Positions 41,953 to 59,873 of a DNA stretch of 64,000 nt are shown here, piece by piece. Within the stretch, counting starts at the first letter, position 1. The number at the start of each line of letters is the position of its first letter. Position numbers and translations under genes: made by a program. The DNA comes from Armatimonadota bacterium. GTDB lineage: Bacteria; Armatimonadota; JAAZEB01. The notes under the pieces are model-generated. The model made no database searches. It was not told the origin of the DNA and was given only the letters and a program-made list of their open reading frames with translations. The DNA lies in assembly GCA_012512265.1 (NCBI GenBank), contig JAAZEM010000007.1, positions 1 to 64,000 on the forward strand, read 5' to 3'.

Positions 41953-42203
41953 CTGGGATTCCGAGATAGAGGGCGAACACGGATGGAGAGGGCCGCCCGC
42001 GCGCGGAGCTCGAAGCTCCGCGCTGCTTCCCAGCAAAGCCCTTCGGGCTTCCCCTCCCAGCCACCGCAGTTTTGAGACATCTGGGAGTATCCCCAACCCA
42101 GCTCGGCAGGGCTTCGCTCACAAGCAGCGCGGGGATTTACTGCCACGCGCGACGGGGTGCGCGCTACCTCCGAGGCTTCGGATTCCTTATATCGGAATCC
42201 CAG
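41953..42203. repeat. Palindromic intergenic repeat, family 2, copy B, with 16-bp terminal inverted repeats
   Basis: CTGGGATTCCGAGATA (41953-41968) and TATATCGGAATCCCAG (42188-42203) are inverted repeats matching at 15 of 16 bases. Inside lie the hairpin GCGGAGCTCGAAGCTCCGC (42003-42021), shared with copy C, and ACAAGCAGCGCGGGGATTTA (42120-42139), shared with copy A. The architecture resembles a small non-autonomous mobile element, with no coding capacity. Confidence 0.65.
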
Positions 42204-42255: not shown

Positions 42256-42410
42256 GGGGGATGATCCCATGCTCCGGGAGAACGGCAGGCAGCCAGAGGT
42301 GCCTGGAGGCCATCGGTTGGCGAGAGGGACGGAACGTCCGGAAGACGCGCCCCGCTGGCCGCCGCAGGTCGTTATTGCCTCCCCGAGCCGCGTCCCATCG
42401 ATTGGAACTC

Positions 42411-44675
42411 ATGCTAGAACAAGCTTTTCAGGAGAGCGGCCTGGAAGAGATCGCCGAGAAAGTACTCGCGGGAGAGCGCCTTTCCGCCGACGACGGCCTG
42501 CGCCTTTTCCGCACCCCCGCGCTGAACCTCGTCGGCTGGCTGGCCAACGTTGTGCGCGAGCGCCTAAACGGCAATCGCGCCTACTTCGTGCGCAACCAGC
42601 ACATCAACTACACCAACGTCTGCGATCGCAAGTGCCGCTTTTGTTCCTTCCACGCCCGCGAGGATGGGCCCGCGCCCTACGTCTTGAGCATCGAGGAGAT
42701 CCGCGAGCGCGTCCGGCAGGCGCTCCACCTCCCCATCGCCGAGATCCACGTCGTGGGCGGCGTGAACCCGAAGCTGCCCTACAGCTACTATCTGGACCTG
42801 ATCCGCGCCATCGTCGAGGAGCGCCCCGGAGTGCATGTGAAGGCGTTCACGATGGTAGAGCTCCAGCAGATCCGGGAGGCCGCCGGGAAGCCGCTCGAGG
42901 AGGTGCTCGCAGAGCTGAAGGCCGCCGGGCTCGGCTCGATGCCGGGCGGGGGCGCCGAAGTCCTCAGCGACCGGCTCCACGCGGAGCTGTTCGCGCGCAA
43001 GCTCCGCCCCGAAGAGTGGCTGGAGACTTCGCGAGCGGTACACAAGGCCGGCCTGCACACCAACGCCAGCCTCCTTTACGGGCATCGTGAGAGCCTCGAG
43101 GAGCGCGTGAACCATCTCGTCCGGGTGCGCGCGCTTCAAGACGAAACCGGAGGCTTCCTCTCCTTCGTGCCCCTCGCCTTCCACCCGGAAGGCTCGCAAC
43201 TCGCGCGGGTGCCCGGGCCCACCGCGTGCGACGACCTGCGGACCATCGCCGTCAGCCGGCTGATGCTCGATAACATCCCGCACATCAAGGCGTTTTGGGT
43301 GATGGCGAGCGTGCCGGTGGCCCAAGCCGCCCTCTGGTACGGCGCGGATGACATCGAAGGCACGGTCCTCCGCTACGAGATCACGCGCGACTCCGGTTCC
43401 GGCACGCGCCGCGAGCTCACCTGCGAGGAGCTGGTCGGCTTGATCCGCGAGGCGGGGCGCGAGCCGGTCGAGCGCGCTGGCGGAACCTACGAGAGCCGGG
43501 AAGCAGTAGAAAACCGGCGCGAGGATCGCTCCACCTGCGCCGAGCGAGAGAGCCAGAGCCACGAAAGAGTGGTGATCGCGAGCCGACCGACGCAGCAGCC
43601 TTCCAGCAGCGGCCACACCGGGCTTTCATCAATCGCCAGGCGGGTAGAAAGCGGCGAGCGGTTGAGCGCCGAGGACGGCGTCGCCCTTTTGCGCCACCCG
43701 AACCTGCCCGAGCTGGGCGCGCTGGCCACTCGGGTCCGCAAGCGCCTGAACCCGGGCCGGACAGTGACCTACGTCATTGGCCGAAACATCAACTACACCA
43801 ACGTCTGCTGGGTGCAGTGCGGCTTCTGCACCTTCCACCGGCGCGCGGGTGATGCCGAGAGCTACGTTCTGCCGGCCGAGGCAATCTACCAGAAGGTCGA
43901 GGAGCTGCTGGCGCTTGGCGGCACCGAAGTCCTCCTGCAGGGGGGACTGAACCCGGCGTTGAAGATTGAATGGTATGAGGAGCTCTTGCGCGGGCTGAAG
44001 GAACGCTATCCGATCCACCTGCACGCGCTCTCGCCCCCGGAGGTGCTTCACCTGGCGCGGGTGTCGCGCCTGAGTGTTCGCGAGGTGCTGGAGCGGCTGA
44101 AAGCCGCCGGGCTCGACTCGCTCCCTGGTGGAGGCGCGGAGCTGCTGGTGGATTCGGTGCGCGAGCGCGTCTCGCCGCGCAAGGCGCGCGCGGAAGAGTG
44201 GCTGGGCGTGATGCGCGAGGCGCACTACCTGGGGATACCGACCACGGCGACGATGGTCTATGGCTTTGGCGAGAGCGCCGAGGAGCGCGTTGAGCACCTG
44301 CTGAAGATCCGCGAGCTTCAGGACGAGACGGGCGGGTTCACCGCGTTCATCGCCTGGAGCTTTCAGCCGGAGGGAACGGCGATCGGCGGGCGGCGCGCAT
44401 CCGGTTATGACTACCTGCGCGTGGTGGCCACCGCCCGGCTCCTCCTGGACAACATCCCGCACATTCAGGCGTCCTGGCTCACCCAGGGGCCGAAGATCGG
44501 GCAGGCTGCGCTCCACTTCGGAGTGGATGATTTCGGGAGCACCGTGCTGGAAGAGAATGTCATCACCGCCCCGGGAGCGCGCTTTCTGATCCCCCTGGAG
44601 GAGCTCGAGCGCCTCATTCGGGCTGCCGGCTATGAGCCCCGCCGCCGGAATACCCGCTACGAATTGACAGGCTGA
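42411..44675 (+). CDS. mqnE-mqnC: Fused aminofutalosine synthase / cyclic dehypoxanthine futalosine synthase (MqnE-MqnC)
   Basis: 754 residues forming two complete radical SAM enzymes of the futalosine route to menaquinone. The N-terminal half (about 1-360) has HINYTNVCDRKCRFCSFHAR and VVGGVNPKLPYSYYLDLI, matching MqnE. The C-terminal half (about 405-754) has NINYTNVCWVQCGFCTFHRR and LLQGGLNPALKIEWYEELL, matching MqnC. Both CxxxCxxC iron-sulfur motifs are intact. A polar linker of about 45 residues joins them, with no stop codon. MqnE and MqnC normally come from separate genes and act at different steps (MqnB or MTAN works between them). Start at ATG 42411; the upstream frame to 42261 has no protein character. 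The stop overlaps dxs as TGATG. Confidence 0.9.
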   Translation: MLEQAFQESGLEEIAEKVLAGERLSADDGLRLFRTPALNLVGWLANVVRERLNGNRAYFVRNQHINYTNVCDRKCRFCSFHAREDGPAPYVLSIEEIRERVRQALHLPIAEIHVVGGVNPKLPYSYYLDLIRAIVEERPGVHVKAFTMVELQQIREAAGKPLEEVLAELKAAGLGSMPGGGAEVLSDRLHAELFARKLRPEEWLETSRAVHKAGLHTNASLLYGHRESLEERVNHLVRVRALQDETGGFLSFVPLAFHPEGSQLARVPGPTACDDLRTIAVSRLMLDNIPHIKAFWVMASVPVAQAALWYGADDIEGTVLRYEITRDSGSGTRRELTCEELVGLIREAGREPVERAGGTYESREAVENRREDRSTCAERESQSHERVVIASRPTQQPSSSGHTGLSSIARRVESGERLSAEDGVALLRHPNLPELGALATRVRKRLNPGRTVTYVIGRNINYTNVCWVQCGFCTFHRRAGDAESYVLPAEAIYQKVEELLALGGTEVLLQGGLNPALKIEWYEELLRGLKERYPIHLHALSPPEVLHLARVSRLSVREVLERLKAAGLDSLPGGGAELLVDSVRERVSPRKARAEEWLGVMREAHYLGIPTTATMVYGFGESAEERVEHLLKIRELQDETGGFTAFIAWSFQPEGTAIGGRRASGYDYLRVVATARLLLDNIPHIQASWLTQGPKIGQAALHFGVDDFGSTVLEENVITAPGARFLIPLEELERLIRAAGYEPRRRNTRYELTG

Positions 44676-46607: not shown

Positions 46608-48095
46608 CTACCGGCCTGCTTTCGAAAGGCCGGCGAGAAACCCCCCGGCCTCATCCTCGTAGGTGTGGAAGGGATCGGGGAGCTCCAGGAGCTGCTCCGC
46701 GCCGGCGTAGACGGCATCCCAATCGATGGCGTAGTGGCGCACGCGCCGCGAGATGAGCTCGCGCACGAGCCGGGCGCGCCCCAGCGCCCGCGTGTTGGCC
46801 GGCGGCGCATCCATCGCGTGGTCGATCTCCTCGTCCGTGACGAGCCGGCGCATCGCCCCCTCGTCCACGAGCGCGTGGTAGAGGCTCCTTTCGGGGTCGA
46901 TGTCGTGGTACTCTAGATCGAGGCTGTGGAGCACGTCCGCGTCCCAACCGACGCCCTCCGCGGCCATGTAAGTCTGCAGCAGCCGCCACTTGGCCACCCA
47001 ATCGAGCCGGTCCGCCAGCGCGACCGGGTCCTTCTCGAGGAGGTCCAGCACCTCTTCCCACTCGCGGATCACCCAGTCGGTCTCCGGGTCGAGGCCCCGG
47101 AGGAAGCGCTGCGCGGCAGCCAGGTAGTAGCGCTGCAGGTCGATCGCGGAGAGGGTGGAGCCGTCATCCCGGACCACGAGCCAGCGCCAGTCGGGGTCGC
47201 GCGAGACTTCACGGAGGGTGGCGAGCGGGTCGGCGAGAAGCACATCGTCTGGAACGCAGCGCATCTCGATGAGTGAGAGCGTGAGGCAGGTGGTGCCGAG
47301 CTTCAGCGCGGCGGCGTATTCGGACATGTTCGCCTCGCCGAAGAGGACGTGGAGCCGGCTGAGCCCGCTGAAATCGAAGAACGAGTCGCGCCTCGGATTG
47401 ATGAGCGCGCGGTTGAAGCGCACGCGCGACGAGACGAGATTGACGATGTGGTCGGCGCGCTGCGAGAGCTGGTAGTTGACCGAGTCGTCGATCTCTACGC
47501 CGTAGAAGTCGTCGACCCACATCGTGTCGACGTCGTGGTCGCCCAGGCGCATCACGTTGTTCCGGAAGTCGTGGCGGTTCAGGCGGTGCCCGCCCACCCG
47601 GCCAGCGCCGGCGAAGATCTGGCGGGTGACGAGGAACGGGATCAGCCGCGCCAGCGCCTCGCCCTGATAGACTTCATCGACCAAGACCAGGTAGTTCTCG
47701 TGGCAGCCGAAGGTGTGCCCGCCGAAGTGATCCACGCTGTTGTTGAAGAAGGCGACGGCGTCGCGCAGGCCAAGCTCGTTCACCAGAGTCTGAAGGAGGC
47801 GCTGCCCGGCTTTGTCCCAGCAGACGGCATCGAAGATGCTCCGGCATTCCGGGGTGGCATACTCCTCGTGGCTGCCCACGGCATCCACGTAGAGCCGGCC
47901 GCCGTTGACCAGGAAGCCCCCGGAGCGCGCCGGCTCGAAGGCGTAGTTGCGCGCGTGCAGGTCTATCACCCCGATCCGCTTGCGGTAGAACGCGTAGTCT
48001 TTGACCCGCTCGACCACTTCCTCCGCTGTGCCGGCGGCCGGGTCGCGCACCAGGCAGCCGAACTCCGTCTCGATCCCGAAGACGCGATGCTCCAT
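46608..48095 (-). CDS. pafA: Pup/UBact-protein ligase PafA
   Basis: 495 residues. It joins the C-terminal glutamate of Pup/UBact to substrate lysines using ATP. The PafA-type opening is RVFGIETEFGCL, with the catalytic acidic region in EEYATPECRSIFDAV and the metal-site region in FFNNSVDHFGGHTFGCHENY. It lacks the extra loop that distinguishes Dop. ATG 48095 has GGGAGG upstream. It is the last gene of the proteasome operon and is separated from prcA by 190 bases that hold a dispersed repeat, so it may also have its own transcript. Convergent with dxs. Confidence 0.93.
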   Translation of the reverse strand: MEHRVFGIETEFGCLVRDPAAGTAEEVVERVKDYAFYRKRIGVIDLHARNYAFEPARSGGFLVNGGRLYVDAVGSHEEYATPECRSIFDAVCWDKAGQRLLQTLVNELGLRDAVAFFNNSVDHFGGHTFGCHENYLVLVDEVYQGEALARLIPFLVTRQIFAGAGRVGGHRLNRHDFRNNVMRLGDHDVDTMWVDDFYGVEIDDSVNYQLSQRADHIVNLVSSRVRFNRALINPRRDSFFDFSGLSRLHVLFGEANMSEYAAALKLGTTCLTLSLIEMRCVPDDVLLADPLATLREVSRDPDWRWLVVRDDGSTLSAIDLQRYYLAAAQRFLRGLDPETDWVIREWEEVLDLLEKDPVALADRLDWVAKWRLLQTYMAAEGVGWDADVLHSLDLEYHDIDPERSLYHALVDEGAMRRLVTDEEIDHAMDAPPANTRALGRARLVRELISRRVRHYAIDWDAVYAGAEQLLELPDPFHTYEDEAGGFLAGLSKAGR

Positions 48096-48123
48096 ACCTC
48101 GCCTCCCTCACACCCCCTCCAGC

Positions 48124-48269
48124 CCGCATCATTCATCGAAGTCTCTTTGCCAGGCGTAGTCCGGGTTCGTGGGCCCTGCCCCCGAAAACACTCTGCCACC
48201 GGGCGCTGGTGGCAGCAACGGCGTGCCACCGGGCAAAAGTCTTCCTTGAAGTATTCTGGTGAATACTTC
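48124..48269. repeat. Hairpin-ended dispersed repeat, family 1, copy 1
   Basis: An imperfect inverted copy of the element at 59716-59873. Shared features are the palindrome GAAGTATTC-TGGT-GAATACTTC (48248-48269), a central region with CCCGAAAACAC and GGTTCGTGGG, and AAGTCTCT near the other end. The second terminal hairpin has lost one arm here (ATTCATCG in place of the full palindrome). It lies between prcA and pafA. Confidence 0.75.
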
Positions 48270-48285
48270 AGGTCAGTAGCCCGCG

Positions 48286-49041
48286 CTACTCCCGTTCGCT
48301 CTCGGTTTCCTCCTCCCGAAGCACCCGGAACCGGCACTGGCGATGGGTGGACCGATCCAGGAGCGCCATCTCCACCTCGCCCTCGCGCAACGCCTCTCCG
48401 AGAACCGCGTCCAGGTCCTGCTCCCCGGCGGGCTCGGCCTTCTGCCCGCGGGAGCGGCGGGCTGCCCAGCCGGCCGCCCAGGCGCGCAGGGCATGGCGAC
48501 GGCCCTCTCGCAGGGAGGGGATCTCGCCCGAACCGAGCGCCTCGGCCAGGCAGGCGCGCATCTGCTCCTCGGCGGTCGGGCTCCCTGCGATCACCGCCAG
48601 GCGCCGGAACGCCCGAAACTCGCCATCGTACCCGAGGGCATAAAAGTGATCGGTCTCGGGCGTGGCGCCTACTTCGGCGAAGAGGGAACGCGCGACGAGC
48701 GGCGCCGCGAGCGGGTCGCCAAACGCCTTCTTCACCGCCGGGCTGAGCGCGGCGACGACGCGCCCGATGGTGACGTCATCAGGGCTGCGCGCGAACCCCT
48801 CGGCGTGCGCGAAGTCGATGGCGCTCAGGCGCAGGGCCTCGATATCGGCCTGCTGGCCAAGCGCGGCGAAGGCTAGCCTGTCGTAGACCTCGAACAGCTT
48901 GCGCTGCGTGCCGCGAACCGTCGCCAGGAGAATACCCTCGCGGCAGGAAAGGGCCACGACGGGGCTCCCCTCGGCCAGGCGCTCCTCGATGTACTCGGCG
49001 CGCTGGCGAATCGCCTCGTTCCAATCATAGGGCGAGAGCAT
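48286..49041 (-). CDS. prcA: 20S proteasome alpha subunit
   Basis: About 251 residues. It builds the outer heptameric rings that gate the chamber and dock the ATPase. The family opening MLSPYDWNEAIRQRAEYIEE is followed by SPVVALSCREGILLAT, the strand in the position of the catalytic threonine of beta subunits but without it. YDRLAFAALGQQADIEALR is typical of actinobacterial PrcA. ATG 49041 shares one base with the prcB stop (TGATG); a GTG one codon earlier is also possible. The C-terminus is charged and probably flexible. Confidence 0.9.
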   Translation of the reverse strand: MLSPYDWNEAIRQRAEYIEERLAEGSPVVALSCREGILLATVRGTQRKLFEVYDRLAFAALGQQADIEALRLSAIDFAHAEGFARSPDDVTIGRVVAALSPAVKKAFGDPLAAPLVARSLFAEVGATPETDHFYALGYDGEFRAFRRLAVIAGSPTAEEQMRACLAEALGSGEIPSLREGRRHALRAWAAGWAARRSRGQKAEPAGEQDLDAVLGEALREGEVEMALLDRSTHRQCRFRVLREEETESERE

Positions 49042-49829
49042 CACGCCCCCCTCCGTATCCGGCTCACCGCCTCGCGCAGGCGCTCTTCCGGCAGGTGCTC
49101 AATCCCAGCCGCCGAGACCGCCTTCGCCGAGGGCAGCACCTTGTCGTAGCCGCCGGTCATGGCATCCATCTCCGCGGCGATATCCAGGAGAACGAGCGCC
49201 TCGGAAAGCGCCTCGTCCAGGCTCATGTCGCGAAACCGGCCCTTCGTCTTCAGGATGTAATCGAAGGCGCCGCGGATGCGCTCGGCGCCCGAGCCGGCGG
49301 CGCCCCACTCCTCGCTTTCGAAGCGAGCGCCCAGGCCGTCATAGAAGAAGATCCGCCCCTCGCCCCGGGTGGCGTCATACACGCTGATCACCGGGAGAAA
49401 CGCGCCCAGGCCGCTCATCGCGCTCGCCACGTTCTGGGCTACAACGCGCGACACCTCCGACAGCTTCCCCTCCAGGCTCATCTCCTGAAGCTGGGTGCGC
49501 CGGTAGTAGTGGAACGCATGGCGCAGGTAGCGCACCACCTCCAGCGCCCGGGCGTAAGAGCCCGAGATCGCCAGGAGCGTGGTGTCGTCCACCTCGAGGA
49601 TCTTCTCCGCGCGGTCATACATGACGGCGTTCGCCGAGGTCGCACGCCGGTCACCCACGTTGAGCACCCCGCCGGCATACTTGACGGCGAGGACCGTGGT
49701 GCCGTGGGCCTCGATGAGTGGCTGGCCGGTCTCGACCGGGCGGACCGGCGCGCCCACCGCGAAGGGATGTTCCCGCCGGCGCAGGAGGTCCAGGAAATCA
49801 CCCGAAGGGCAACGCTCCAGCGCGGCCAT
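49041..49829 (-). CDS. prcB: 20S proteasome beta subunit, catalytic
   Basis: 262 residues. A 43-residue propeptide ends in EAHG, exposing Thr44 of TTVLAVKYAGGVLNVGDRRA as the N-terminal nucleophile. The mature sequence has the conserved Asp of GDRRAT and the Lys of AEKI. The later GSGAERI segment matches the SGS-type turn of other PrcB proteins. It forms the two inner rings that cut substrates. It begins 2 bases after the UBact stop codon, with GGAGA upstream, and overlaps prcA. Confidence 0.95.
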   Translation of the reverse strand: MAALERCPSGDFLDLLRRREHPFAVGAPVRPVETGQPLIEAHGTTVLAVKYAGGVLNVGDRRATSANAVMYDRAEKILEVDDTTLLAISGSYARALEVVRYLRHAFHYYRRTQLQEMSLEGKLSEVSRVVAQNVASAMSGLGAFLPVISVYDATRGEGRIFFYDGLGARFESEEWGAAGSGAERIRGAFDYILKTKGRFRDMSLDEALSEALVLLDIAAEMDAMTGGYDKVLPSAKAVSAAGIEHLPEERLREAVSRIRRGA

Positions 49830-49831
49830 CG

Positions 49832-50020
49832 CTATTCTCCGCTCCGCTGGCGGTAACGCTTCGCCTGATCCGGGTCGACCTGGCGCATCCGCTCCAAAAG
49901 GCGGCGGGTGTCTGGGCGCGGCACGTTCGGGCGGCGCGGGCCGTCGTCGTCACCGCCCTGTCGCAACGGCTCCACCGGCGTCACGGGAAGCTGGCGCCGT
50001 TCTACCATGGCTCTTTGCAT
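49832..50020 (-). CDS. ubact: UBact / Pup-type protein modifier
   Basis: 62 residues, disordered-looking and highly charged. The C-terminal half reads PRRPNVPRPDTRRLLERMRQ followed by VDPDQAKRYRQRSGE. The Arg-Ser-Gly-Glu ending is the signature reported for UBact, the Pup counterpart in several Gram-negative phyla. Glu as last residue means it should be conjugated without prior deamidation, unlike the Gln-ended Pup of mycobacteria. ATG 50020 has AAAGGAG eight bases upstream; an in-frame ATG at 50044 overlaps that site. It sits between dop and prcB, as pup does in Actinobacteria. Confidence 0.92.
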   Translation of the reverse strand: MQRAMVERRQLPVTPVEPLRQGGDDDGPRRPNVPRPDTRRLLERMRQVDPDQAKRYRQRSGE

Positions 50021-50040
50021 GAAGAATCTCCTTTCAATAA

Positions 50041-51558
50041 TCAATAAGCTCGCGAAGTGACCATCTCAAGGCCGGCCAGATCGGCCGGGCTCGCCGCGCG
50101 CTCGATAGCAGCCACCACCTCGGCAACGCGCTCCGGAACTCCATCCCCCTCCCCGGGCCGGGTCACCAAGCTGCCCAGATCCAGAAAAGCGCCGTCCAGG
50201 AAGATATGGTTCCAAGAGATCGCGCGGATCCCGGGCCCGAACCGGGCAACGCACGCGCCGCGCGCCGCTGCCCGGGTGCCAGCTGGGGGCGTATGCATTG
50301 CCCGGCGCGTCTCCTCCTCCGTGACAACCGGACGGATGGCGCCCTCCGCCTCCAGGGCATAGAAGAGGCCCTCTTCCGGGTCGATGTTGTGATACTCCAG
50401 GTCCAGGCTGCGGAGCGTGGCGTCGTCCCACGACAGGCCCTCGGCCTCGCGATACACCTCCAGAAGCTGGCGCTTGGCCACCCAATCGAGCCGGTCCGCC
50501 AGGGAGAAGGGATCGCGCTCCAGGGCATTGAGCGTCTCTTCCCAATCGGCGGCGACCTCTCGATACTCCGGGAAAGCATCCACCCCGCGCTCGCGCGCTG
50601 CGGCCAGGTAGATCCGCTGCACATCCACGGCGGGGATCGTCCGGCCGTCGTCCGTCTCCACCAGCCACCGGAGCTCCGGGTCGCGCGAGACGTGCTTGAT
50701 CGCATCCACCGGCTTGCGAAGCGCGAAAGGCGGCTGCCACCCCTTTTCGAGGAGAGAGAGGACCAAGGCCGTCGCGCCCACCTTCAGCCGGAGCGCGAAA
50801 GGAGAGAGGTTGGCATCGCCGCAGATGACATGGAGGCGGCGGTGCCGGCGCGGGTCGGCATGGGGCTCGTCGCGCGTGTTCAGGATCGGCCGGCGATAGA
50901 GCGTGTCGACGCTCGCCTCTTCGGCGCAGAAATCGGCGCGCTGGGAGAGCTGGAAGAGCGCCCCATCAGTCTCGGGCGGCTCGACGCCCACCTTGCCGGC
51001 GCCCGCGTAGATCTGGCGCGTCACCAGGAAGGGGATCAGCCCGGCCTGGAGCCGCTCGAACGGCACCTCGCGCGCGAAGAGATAGCTCTCGTGCGCCCCA
51101 TAGCTCATGCCGTGAAAATCGGTGTTGTTCTTGTAGATCCGCACCGGCACGCCCAGGCGCTCGGCATGGGCGCGCGCGCACTCCAGGACGATCCGCTCGC
51201 CCGCGCGCTCGTGCGCCACCAACTCCCGGAGCGACACGCACTCCGGGGTAGCGTATTCCGGATGGCCGTGGTCATTATAGAGCCGGGCGCCATTGACCAG
51301 GACGCGGTCGCTGCGCAGGTCCTCAGCGGGGCGTTCCGGACAGGCGCGGTCGTAGCGCGCGTCCTCGGGATCCACGGCCAGCTGCTTCACGCGGTAGCCC
51401 CGGAGGTCGCTGCGCGGGTCCTCCACACGGTAGTCCCAGCCGGTCACGTGCGGGAGGGCGCACGCGCGCACCAGGGCAGCGGCCTGGTCCATCTGGTCCG
51501 AAGGGCCCTTCCCCTCGACCAGCATCCCGTACTCCACTTCGGTGCCGATGAGGCGCAT
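50041..51558 (-). CDS. dop: Dop: Pup/UBact deamidase and depupylase
   Basis: 505 residues. The opening MRLIGTEVEYGMLVEG is the Dop form of the shared carboxylate-amine ligase fold. A long insertion follows (RVEDPRSDLRGYRVKQLAVD to about residue 85), in the place of the Dop-specific loop missing in PafA. Then come HPEYATPECVSLRELV and IYKNNTDFHGMSYGAHESYL. Dop removes the tag from proteins; here its deamidase role may be unnecessary because the tag already ends in Glu. ATG 51558 has GGAGCAGAG upstream. Confidence 0.93.
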   Translation of the reverse strand: MRLIGTEVEYGMLVEGKGPSDQMDQAAALVRACALPHVTGWDYRVEDPRSDLRGYRVKQLAVDPEDARYDRACPERPAEDLRSDRVLVNGARLYNDHGHPEYATPECVSLRELVAHERAGERIVLECARAHAERLGVPVRIYKNNTDFHGMSYGAHESYLFAREVPFERLQAGLIPFLVTRQIYAGAGKVGVEPPETDGALFQLSQRADFCAEEASVDTLYRRPILNTRDEPHADPRRHRRLHVICGDANLSPFALRLKVGATALVLSLLEKGWQPPFALRKPVDAIKHVSRDPELRWLVETDDGRTIPAVDVQRIYLAAARERGVDAFPEYREVAADWEETLNALERDPFSLADRLDWVAKRQLLEVYREAEGLSWDDATLRSLDLEYHNIDPEEGLFYALEAEGAIRPVVTEEETRRAMHTPPAGTRAAARGACVARFGPGIRAISWNHIFLDGAFLDLGSLVTRPGEGDGVPERVAEVVAAIERAASPADLAGLEMVTSRAY

Positions 51559-51617
51559 TCTCTGCTCCACTGCCCGAAACCCGGGCAGGCCATGCGAAGC
51601 GCTCGCGCGCTCGGACC

Positions 51618-53300
51618 TCAGATCACGCTCTGGCGCCCGGCCACGCGGTCGTGCTCGGGTCGGATCGGGCGGATGCTGGCGACGTTCTCGGGGTCGTGGT
51701 CGAGGAGCTTCAGCCAGTCCTCCTGGGCATCGCTTTTCGGGAAGATCTCGTTCTCGCGATACTCCAGGCGGATGGCGCGCTCCAGATCGGGCAATCCGAT
51801 CCCCTCGTCGGGGCTCTTCAGCTCGATGGCCCGGCGGATGGCGAACTCCTTGGCGCGCTCCACGACCGACATGATCAGCGCCCCGCTCACCAGGTCCTTC
51901 CAATAGAGGGTTTGCACGCCGCCGTTGCGCAGGTGTACCTCCAGGAACTCCGCCTGCGGCGTCTCCTGGAAGAGGTAGCGCGTCGCATCCTGGATCATCA
52001 TCTGCCGGGCGGCCTCCGGGTCGCCGCCATGCTCGCGCACCGTGGCGGGATCCAGGGGCACGTCGGGGTGGAGGTAGATCCCGAAGATCTCCTGCGTGGC
52101 GCGATAGTCTGGCCGGCCCACCTTCACCTTGCGGTCGATTCGCTCCGGGCGCAGGATGGCGGGGTCGAGGTAGTCGGGCCGGTTGGACGTGAGCATGACG
52201 ACGACGTTATCGAGCGAGACCAGGCCATCCATCTCGGCGGCGAACTGGGGCACCAGGGTGTTGGCGATGTTCAGCCACCGCCCAGACGAGCGCGTGCGCA
52301 AAAGCGATTCCGCCTCGTCGATGAAGATGAAGACGAGCTGGCCCTCGCGGGCGCGCTCGCGCGCCTGGGCGAAGATTTCGCGGACCATGCGCTCGGACTC
52401 GCCGAGCCACATGTTGAGGATCTGCGGACCGTTGATCAGGAGGAAGCACTCCTTCACGTCGCGGCCCAGGCGCCGCCGGTACTCCTCCGTGAGGTTGTAG
52501 GCCGTTGCCTTGCCGAGAAGCGTCTTCCCGCACCCCGGCGGACCGTAGAGGAGGATCCCTTTGAGCTGGCGCTTGCCAAACCGCGCGTAGAGCTCCGGGT
52601 AGAGCAGCGGCAGCTCGATGGTATCGCGGATGACGCGAATCGCCTCTTCCTGGCCGCCGATCTTGCTCCAGGGGAGCTCCGGGATCTCCTCCAGCGAGTA
52701 GTCGCGCGTCTCGACGCGCGGGAAGTGCTCCAGGGCCACCCGGAGGCCGGGGTCGGTGCGCACCTCGTCGCCAGGCTTCAGCACCACCTCGCGCAGGCTC
52801 GCGGAGCGGACAACGACCCGGGTGGAGCTACCCTGGGCATCCAGGGCCACGCGCAGGCGCTCGTCGCCCAGGAGCTCGCTTATCTTGACGATGGGGCCAG
52901 ATTCGGGATAGCCCAGGTCGCCCACAACGGCGAACGCCTCGTTGAGCCGCACCCGGGTGCCCACCTGAAGCTGGTCGAGCGGGAGCGCCGGGTCCACGTT
53001 GGCGAAGTACTCGGTATCGCCCACGGCGATGTGCGCGGCGCGACCCTCGCCGGGCCCCAGGTAGATGCCAACCCGGTTGGATGGCGCGGTGAGCTGGCGA
53101 TAGGCCTCCTCGTACTCGGCGATGGCCTTGAGTGCCTGGCGATACTGCTGCTCATCCACCACGAGCTGGCGGCGTAGGAGCTCCAGGTAGCTGTAGAGAC
53201 GGCGATCCGTCGGGGGCTGGTTCTGGAGGAGCTCTTCCAGGAGCGCGGCCGATCCCAGAGTTGCCTCCGGGCCCTCCGCCGCGTAGCGATCGTCTCTCAT
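51618..53300 (-). CDS. mpa: Proteasome-associated AAA ATPase (Mpa/ARC)
   Basis: 560 residues. The N-terminal 90 residues include a coiled coil (RRLYSYLELLRRQLVVDEQQ and on to about residue 68) that in Mpa captures Pup. Two OB-type domains follow (RVGIYLGPGEGRAAHIAVGD, then VVVRSASLREVVLKPGDEV). The AAA module has Walker A GPPGCGKT, Walker B FIFIDEAESLL and arginines in LRPERIDRKV. The C-terminus ends in GRQSVI, without the penultimate tyrosine that docks Mpa on the 20S ring. ATG 53300 has GGGGAGA upstream. It is the first gene of the operon. Confidence 0.93.
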   Translation of the reverse strand: MRDDRYAAEGPEATLGSAALLEELLQNQPPTDRRLYSYLELLRRQLVVDEQQYRQALKAIAEYEEAYRQLTAPSNRVGIYLGPGEGRAAHIAVGDTEYFANVDPALPLDQLQVGTRVRLNEAFAVVGDLGYPESGPIVKISELLGDERLRVALDAQGSSTRVVVRSASLREVVLKPGDEVRTDPGLRVALEHFPRVETRDYSLEEIPELPWSKIGGQEEAIRVIRDTIELPLLYPELYARFGKRQLKGILLYGPPGCGKTLLGKATAYNLTEEYRRRLGRDVKECFLLINGPQILNMWLGESERMVREIFAQARERAREGQLVFIFIDEAESLLRTRSSGRWLNIANTLVPQFAAEMDGLVSLDNVVVMLTSNRPDYLDPAILRPERIDRKVKVGRPDYRATQEIFGIYLHPDVPLDPATVREHGGDPEAARQMMIQDATRYLFQETPQAEFLEVHLRNGGVQTLYWKDLVSGALIMSVVERAKEFAIRRAIELKSPDEGIGLPDLERAIRLEYRENEIFPKSDAQEDWLKLLDHDPENVASIRPIRPEHDRVAGRQSVI

Positions 53301-53670
53301 GAGTTCTCCCCTCAGCGAAAATGGACAGCGTAATCAGAACCTATCGAGAGCCGGACCTCTCATGCCCGAGGAGAGCACCGGATGCCCTCCTCCATCCACG
53401 CCTGCCGACCAGTGCGAGGTCCTCCGACCAGGCCCTCATCATCGGGATCCCTCGTGAGAGTCAGTGTATCCCTTTCGGGGCGTTGGTGTCAAGGAGGGCG
53501 GCAACGGCGCGGTGCGGGATGGTCAGGAGGAGCTGTGGTGTCGCGCGGGCGCAATGAAATCCGCAGATGAACACAGGCGCACACAGATGGAGGGCGTGAA
53601 GCGGGCAAGAGCGAGAGGGGCACCCGCTGGTGCCCCGACTAGACCGTTCACCCTCGCCCTTGCAGCGAGC
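53301..53670. other. Intergenic region upstream of the proteasome operon
   Basis: 370 bases without a supported gene. It holds a module resembling the left edge of repeat family 2 (CCGCAGATGAACACAGGCGC at about 53563, then ACACAGATGGAG) and a perfect 8-bp hairpin GGGGCACC-CGCT-GGTGCCCC near 53618. No clear promoter for mpa was found. Confidence 0.5.
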
Positions 53671-56657: not shown

Positions 56658-56895
56658 TCGATACCACAGATGAAGTCGGGTGTGCTTCACACGCGTGCGG
56701 AGCTCGAAGCTCCGCGCTACTTTCCGGCAAAGCCTCTTCGGGGCTCCCCCTCCCAGACCACCGCCACCGATCCGCGGGCGGCGTGAAGGGGCGAACGTTC
56801 ACTGTTCGCCATCCTTCCGGATGGGTTGGGCAGGCACCCAGGGTGCGGACACCCTGGGCTGCGTCATGCGCTCCCTCCGGGAGCGGAGCAGGGCC
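56658..56895. repeat. Palindromic intergenic repeat, family 2, copy C
   Basis: Has the left edge GATACCACAGATGAAG in common with copy A, hairpin GCGGAGCTCGAAGCTCCGC (56697-56715) in common with copy B, and CCCAGGGTG-CGGA-CACCCTGGG (56837-56858) in common with copy A. It lies just upstream of the clpB promoter. Confidence 0.7.
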
Positions 56896-57108: not shown

Positions 57109-59712
<2,604 letters not shown>

Positions 59713-59715
59713 CCC

Positions 59716-59873
59716 GAAGTATTCACCAGAATACTTCAAGAGAAGGCTCTTGTCTGGTGGCATGCCGTTGCCGCTACAAGCGCCCGGAGGCAGGGTGTTT
59801 TCGGGGCTGTGCCCACGAACCCGCCCCGCGCCTGGCAGAGAGACTTCTTTCATTATTCTGATGAATAATGCGG
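59716..59873. repeat. Hairpin-ended dispersed repeat, family 1, copy 2
   Basis: Starts three bases after the clpB stop with GAAGTATTC-ACCA-GAATACTTC (59716-59737) and ends with CATTATTC-TGAT-GAATAATG (59851-59870). The interior is closely similar, in inverse orientation, to 48124-48269. The two terminal hairpins and lack of coding capacity suggest a small mobile or REP-like element. The first hairpin may also act as the clpB terminator. Confidence 0.77.

Follow-up and report, generated by a model that had tools for sequence, protein, structure and literature searches.

The UBact tag and its companion ligase, Dop, ATPase, and proteasome genes were described in 2017 from several Gram-negative groups (Lehmann et al., BBRC 483:946-950, as represented in PMC12751074 and PMC5751360). 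Proteasome subunits of the Armatimonadota were noted in the same year (PMC5666114), and tags that resemble Pup and terminate in G[EQ] had been noted outside the Actinobacteria in 2008 (PMC2588565). For the mycobacterial machinery, it has been reported that the penultimate tyrosine of the Mpa tail is required (PMC8142254), that the pore loop of M. tuberculosis is Phe-Val-Gly (PMC8755798), and that a lysine in the alpha-subunit pocket of M. tuberculosis is needed for activator function (PMC12288473).

Here, we describe a UBact-proteasome gene cluster from an armatimonad genome. Since the UBact system and the armatimonad subunits were published earlier, the cluster belongs to a known kind. It is neither rare nor new in kind, and UBact was found in 167 of 291 Armatimonadota genomes, including 132 of the 194 better assemblies.

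Gene cluster and UBact tag

The window is the whole stretch of armatimonad DNA that was analyzed, with a length of 64,000 nucleotides. Six open frames follow one another on its minus strand in the order mpa, dop, UBact, prcB, prcA, and pafA (Table 1). An initial sequence-only reading had proposed this set and order as a complete UBact-proteasome gene set outside the Actinobacteria. The complete set is present, and each frame gave a family match far beyond chance, with E-values that hold for the collections searched.

Table 1. Positions in the window of the six genes and of two associated elements
Feature	Positions	Strand	Remarks
mpa	51618-53300	minus	560 aa
dop	50041-51558	minus	505 aa
UBact	49832-50020	minus	62 aa
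prcB	49041-49829	minus	262 aa
prcA	48286-49041	minus	251 aa
pafA	46608-48095	minus	495 aa
dispersed intergenic repeat, ~135 bases	48138-48273		38 matches in genome; sits in prcA-pafA spacer
promoter-like site TTGACA-18-TACACT	53463-53492	minus	consensus match only, 10/12; ~160 bases upstream of mpa start

The spacings between mpa and dop, dop and UBact, and UBact and prcB were found to be 59, 20, and 2 bases, respectively, and prcB and prcA overlap by 1 base. The tight gaps that had been described up to prcA are thus as proposed. The accompanying proposal of a single operon is likely only as far as prcA; pafA lies 190 bases further on, behind the dispersed repeat. This repeat contains a perfect palindrome, GAAGTATTCACCAGAATACTTC, and on the operon strand it presents a terminator-like stem of 8 pairs followed by a T-rich stretch. 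An inverted copy is located at positions 59712-59847, just after clpB. When the prcA-pafA spacer was folded as RNA, it was no more stable than expected (z -0.94). Among the relatives this gap is mostly 1-80 bases, and values of 168-190 were also seen. Because a repeat with a terminator-like stem occupies the 190-base spacer, pafA may be transcribed at a lower level or from a promoter of its own.

A second repeat of 43 bases, with the palindrome GGAGCTCGAAGCTCC, occurs in the window at positions 41998-42040 and 56692-56734, and its two copies are 91% identical. At positions 42261-44675 of the window is a frame of 804 codons that contains both MqnE and MqnC of the futalosine menaquinone pathway and is apparently a gene fusion.

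The 62-aa frame was matched by the UBact profiles PF20513 of Pfam (E 5.5e-21, 74.5 bits against a cut-off of 27.8) and NF033388 of NCBIfam (E 1.9e-22, 79.2 bits against a cut-off of 35), as expected for the proposed tag. The Pup family PF05639, which had been named for the tag, was ruled out; this profile gave no match at E <= 1, and PF20513 is the correct Pfam family. A comparison of the tag with solved structures returned a chance match only (E 1.7).

The C-terminus of the tag is RQRSGE. The sequence-only reading had called the Arg-Ser-Gly-Glu end the UBact form, and the tag does end in Gln-Arg-Ser-Gly-Glu; however, an end in Gln is equally common. Among 121 partly redundant loci, the last residue is Glu in 61 and Gln in 60, and all 121 end in G[EQ]; some loci are counted twice because two collections overlap, so these are not species counts. 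Both ends occur within a single genus (Gln in L035 and Glu in L036), and the switch is evidently an easy one. A tag that ends in Gln should need deamidation by Dop. Because the C-terminal Glu is encoded here, no prior deamidation should be needed. The same two species of one genus also carry a second, diverged UBact-like frame (L035 6803-7157, minus strand; L036 6974-7319), which overlaps the end of the first and terminates in QRSGQ or QRPGQ.

Dop and the candidate PafA

Two of the encoded proteins have the Pup-ligase fold, and both matched PF03136 of Pfam in the profile search that had been suggested for them (Dop, E 2.1e-156; PafA, E 6.8e-134). The upstream enzyme scored 447 bits with the NCBIfam profile for Dop (TIGR03688) and 351 bits with that for PafA, and it matched the solved Dop structure 5lrt with an E-value of 4.1e-115. 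The Dop-loop, the catalytic motif, and the alpha-loop are the listed differences between Dop and PafA, and their roles have been described (PMC7947786). The upstream enzyme has the Dop-loop, the motif NGARLYNDHGHPEY, and an alpha-loop of the Dop type. The downstream enzyme has no Dop-loop, and it carries NGGRLYVDAVGSHEEY with the VGS of PafA (VGSH after the catalytic Asp). Its alpha-loop is of the PafA type in part, with the His and Ser-Ser kept and the Trp-Glu-Gly not kept.

It is conceivable that the roles of the two ligase-fold enzymes are swapped or shared, with the downstream protein being a second UBact-specific enzyme and no PafA orthologue. The NCBIfam scores of this protein, 321 bits for the Dop profile and 312 bits for the PafA profile, are nearly equal and both below cut-off, and they would be in keeping with such an arrangement. 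So would the lack of the NTRDEPHAD motif, which is absent from all of the UBact-side PafA sequences in the alignment and is replaced there by an NPKxxS-like sequence. Both actinobacterial references, Dop as well as PafA, have the motif, and the UBact-side Dop sequences have largely retained it. In an IQ-TREE phylogeny, all 18 enzymes of the downstream type were split from the rest with a support of 100/100, and the downstream enzyme did not group with the actinobacterial PafA reference. That reference, however, is partial and long-branched, and the loop and motif residues given above assign the upstream gene to the Dop type and set the downstream enzyme apart from it. We therefore regard an exchange or sharing of roles as very unlikely, and we retain PafA as the assignment for the downstream enzyme. 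For its putative orthology with the PafA of Actinobacteria we rely on the motifs and not on the phylogeny, because the reference sequences of both enzymes were taken over from structure alignments in print and the PafA reference was left unplaced.

An earlier midpoint-rooted FastTree of Dop and PafA, in which the labels were mixed by the rooting, was superseded by the IQ-TREE phylogeny with its one fully supported split. Four extra partial matches to the Pup-ligase family were noticed on a single contig of another genome (G055, contig C14, 9607-13928), and these are possibly a divergent or broken array of paralogues.

Mpa and the 20S subunits

The product of mpa matched PF17758, PF16450, and PF00004 of Pfam. 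Its match to TIGR03689 (E 2.7e-129, 432 bits) is below the equivalog cut-off of 504.75, as were those of all 18 Armatimonadota genomes with a match in one whole-genome search. The protein could be aligned by phmmer with M. tuberculosis Mpa (5kwa) through the beta-grasp region with an E-value of 9.7e-94. Its architecture consists of a coiled coil (judged by eye only), two OB domains, an AAA domain, and the beta-grasp region, and we predict a hexameric AAA+ ATPase of the Mpa/ARC type.

The tail of this Mpa reads GRQSVI, so that the last four residues are Gln-Ser-Val-Ile, and the mycobacterial GQYL motif is absent. All 40 of the distinct UBact-linked Mpa sequences in a first set end in [IV][IV], as do 11 of 12 further sequences; the twelfth ends in Val-Leu, and a thirteenth was a repeat of one already counted. 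No tyrosine was found in the last four residues of any of the 40 and 12 sequences. The pore loop Asn-Met-Trp-[Leu/Val]-Gly-Glu was present in every Mpa examined.

PrcB matched PF00227 of Pfam (E 9.5e-27), and its score with TIGR03690 (131.7 bits) is below the NCBIfam equivalog cut-off. The N-terminal Thr on which the initial reading of PrcB depended is there after alignment. The mature mycobacterial and rhodococcal PrcB chains begin, with their residue 1, at residue 44 of this protein, which gives a propeptide of 43 residues and makes Thr44 the catalytic Thr1, with the equivalents of Asp17 and Lys33 also present. The GTT...D17 motif was found in 95 of 95 distinct relatives.

The assignment of PrcA is the weakest part of our reading of the cluster. 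Its scores are below the general cut-offs, with 15.3 bits for PF00227 and 78.5 bits for TIGR03691 (cut-off 139.05), and phmmer gave an E-value of 4.1e-13 with the actinobacterial PrcA 1q5q. The AlphaFold2 prediction, made from 26 sequences, has a mean pLDDT of 94 and an N-terminal H0 helix at residues 4-22. A Foldseek search with the predicted structure returned M. tuberculosis 20S chains as the best solved matches, with E-values of ~1e-15 and TM-scores (target) of up to 0.85. All 26 aligned sequences share the pocket residue Lys48, which takes the position of the activator-docking lysine in the alignment. The predicted fold and the gene context thus carry the assignment of PrcA as a putative 20S alpha subunit.

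Adjacent genes for HslV and HslU are also found in this genome (L159 2205-4229, contig C12). With these and the 20S genes in one genome, two proteasome-like proteases coexist. The presence of HslV alongside a 20S proteasome was considered as an anomaly and dropped, since proteases of this kind are known to occur side by side (PMC8665760, PMC5666114).

Distribution, proposed function, and comparison with known systems

A scan of 84,980 species also located UBact in Verrucomicrobia/Spartobacteria and in Candidatus Fraserbacteria. The gene order observed here is that of most intact armatimonad clusters and of the Fraserbacteria contig. Homologues of Dop and PafA beyond the Actinobacteria and Nitrospirae have been called "very sporadic" (PMC7947786); in the Armatimonadota, unlike that wording, they are not sporadic. 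In eight verrucomicrobial loci of the Spartobacteria type (L087, L091, L102, L106, L110, L117, L118, and L134), UBact, PrcB, and PrcA were seen with no adjoining Mpa or Dop; in L102, a single ligase-fold gene with the motif NGGRLYLDMGHLEY runs on the other strand.

The estimated contamination of the assembly is ~6%, and a cluster foreign to the organism would be one outcome of this. However, the closest Dop in the tree, at 68% identity, is that of a different armatimonad within the organism's own family, and two genomes of this family (G203 and G204) both hold Mpa, PrcB, and PrcA, with Dop and UBact also in G203 and PafA also in G204. The flanking pseudopilin genes, which we take to be of a type associated with the Armatimonadota, were likewise counted against contamination. 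We assign it a probability close to negligible and treat the cluster as chromosomal.

In the Fimbriimonadaceae (f16, a large family) and their relatives (L053-L061 and L163-L178), none of the six genes is missing, but they are scattered. Dop and UBact are together, usually with prcB, and pafA, mpa, and prcA are elsewhere in the genome. A loss of these three genes, which are absent from the 14-kb stretches, was rejected when whole-genome searches found all of them. Linkage of the six genes is therefore not essential. In another family (G164), mpa and pafA have been relocated. The retention of tag and Dop beside prcB, away from the other parts, would suit a tag that is mainly a non-degradative signal, as is pupylation in the proteasome-less corynebacteria, with the 20S particle acting separately. 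An Mpa tail unlike the known docking motif points in the same direction. Against this, most relatives keep the six genes in one place, as does this genome, the fully searched scattered lineages retain all of the parts, and both the pocket lysine of PrcA and the catalytic motif of PrcB are conserved. A mainly non-degradative role of the tag is accordingly judged highly improbable.

With high confidence, we propose that the cluster specifies a chromosomal UBact-proteasome system, in which targets would be tagged with UBact at the expense of ATP, untagged by Dop, and degraded by Mpa and the 20S particle. The encoded tag-and-degrade machinery is complete and probably functional. The genes, their order and families, the predicted fold of PrcA, the catalytic motifs, and their conservation are directly supported; the biochemical steps and the complex are what we infer. 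PafA would phosphorylate UBact on its C-terminal Glu, at the side-chain carboxylate, and join the tag to lysines of the target, and Dop would take it off. The coiled coils of an Mpa hexamer would bind the disordered tag, and its Trp-Leu-Gly pore loops would draw in the N-terminus of the tag. Mpa would then unfold the target and feed it into a PrcA7-PrcB7-PrcB7-PrcA7 chamber for cleavage by the PrcB residue Thr1, which is exposed once the propeptide is removed. The [IV][IV] tail of Mpa may dock with its carboxylate paired to the invariant lysine of PrcA, in place of the mycobacterial Gly-Gln-Tyr-Leu. The points against this proposal are the sub-cut-off scores of PrcA and PrcB, the placement of PafA in the tree, the tyrosine-less tail of Mpa, the missing NTRDEPHAD of PafA, and the spacer before pafA, which may break co-transcription.

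The differences in tail, pore loop, and ligase are conserved in sequence. It is possible, at slightly less than an even chance, that the UBact proteasomes are a branch with a biochemistry of their own, in which the ATPase uses an [IV][IV] tail without tyrosine to open the 20S gate and a Trp pore loop to pull, and the ligase can do without NTRDEPHAD. No description of these three features was found in the accessible literature, which takes in few of the subscription journals. If this proposition is true, the penultimate-tyrosine rule for activators fails in the UBact branch, and if the [IV][IV] tail opens its cognate gate, the chemistry that proteasome activators need is narrowed. The mycobacterial holoenzyme requires an open-gate mutant in vitro (PMC12288473), and it is our hope only that UBact-type proteins are perhaps easier to assemble as an active holoenzyme.

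The cluster is a clean example of a little-studied tagging system that is common within the Armatimonadota. It shares with the Gram-negative UBact system, as far as the work of Lehmann et al. is represented in later papers, the tag family (PF20513/NF033388), the Gly-Glu/Gln end, and the companion Dop, PafA, Mpa, PrcB, and PrcA. Within that same representation nothing was found that sets the cluster apart, and pafA is offset here by the spacer with its dispersed repeat. The alpha and beta subunits of the Armatimonadota, in an earlier comparison with those of nitrospiral and verrucomicrobial organisms, fall in a separate Gram-negative cluster; that study covered the proteasome subunits and not the tag or ligase genes (PMC5666114). 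With the Pup-proteasome of M. tuberculosis and other Actinobacteria, the system has in common the six functions, homologous enzymes, a coiled-coil/OB ATPase, a Thr1 protease, and the alpha fold. It differs in having a tag of another family that can be encoded with Glu, an Mpa that ends in [IV][IV] and not in GQYL, a pore loop with Trp and not Phe, and a PafA without the NTRDEPHAD that Dop has kept, and HslVU is additionally present in this genome.
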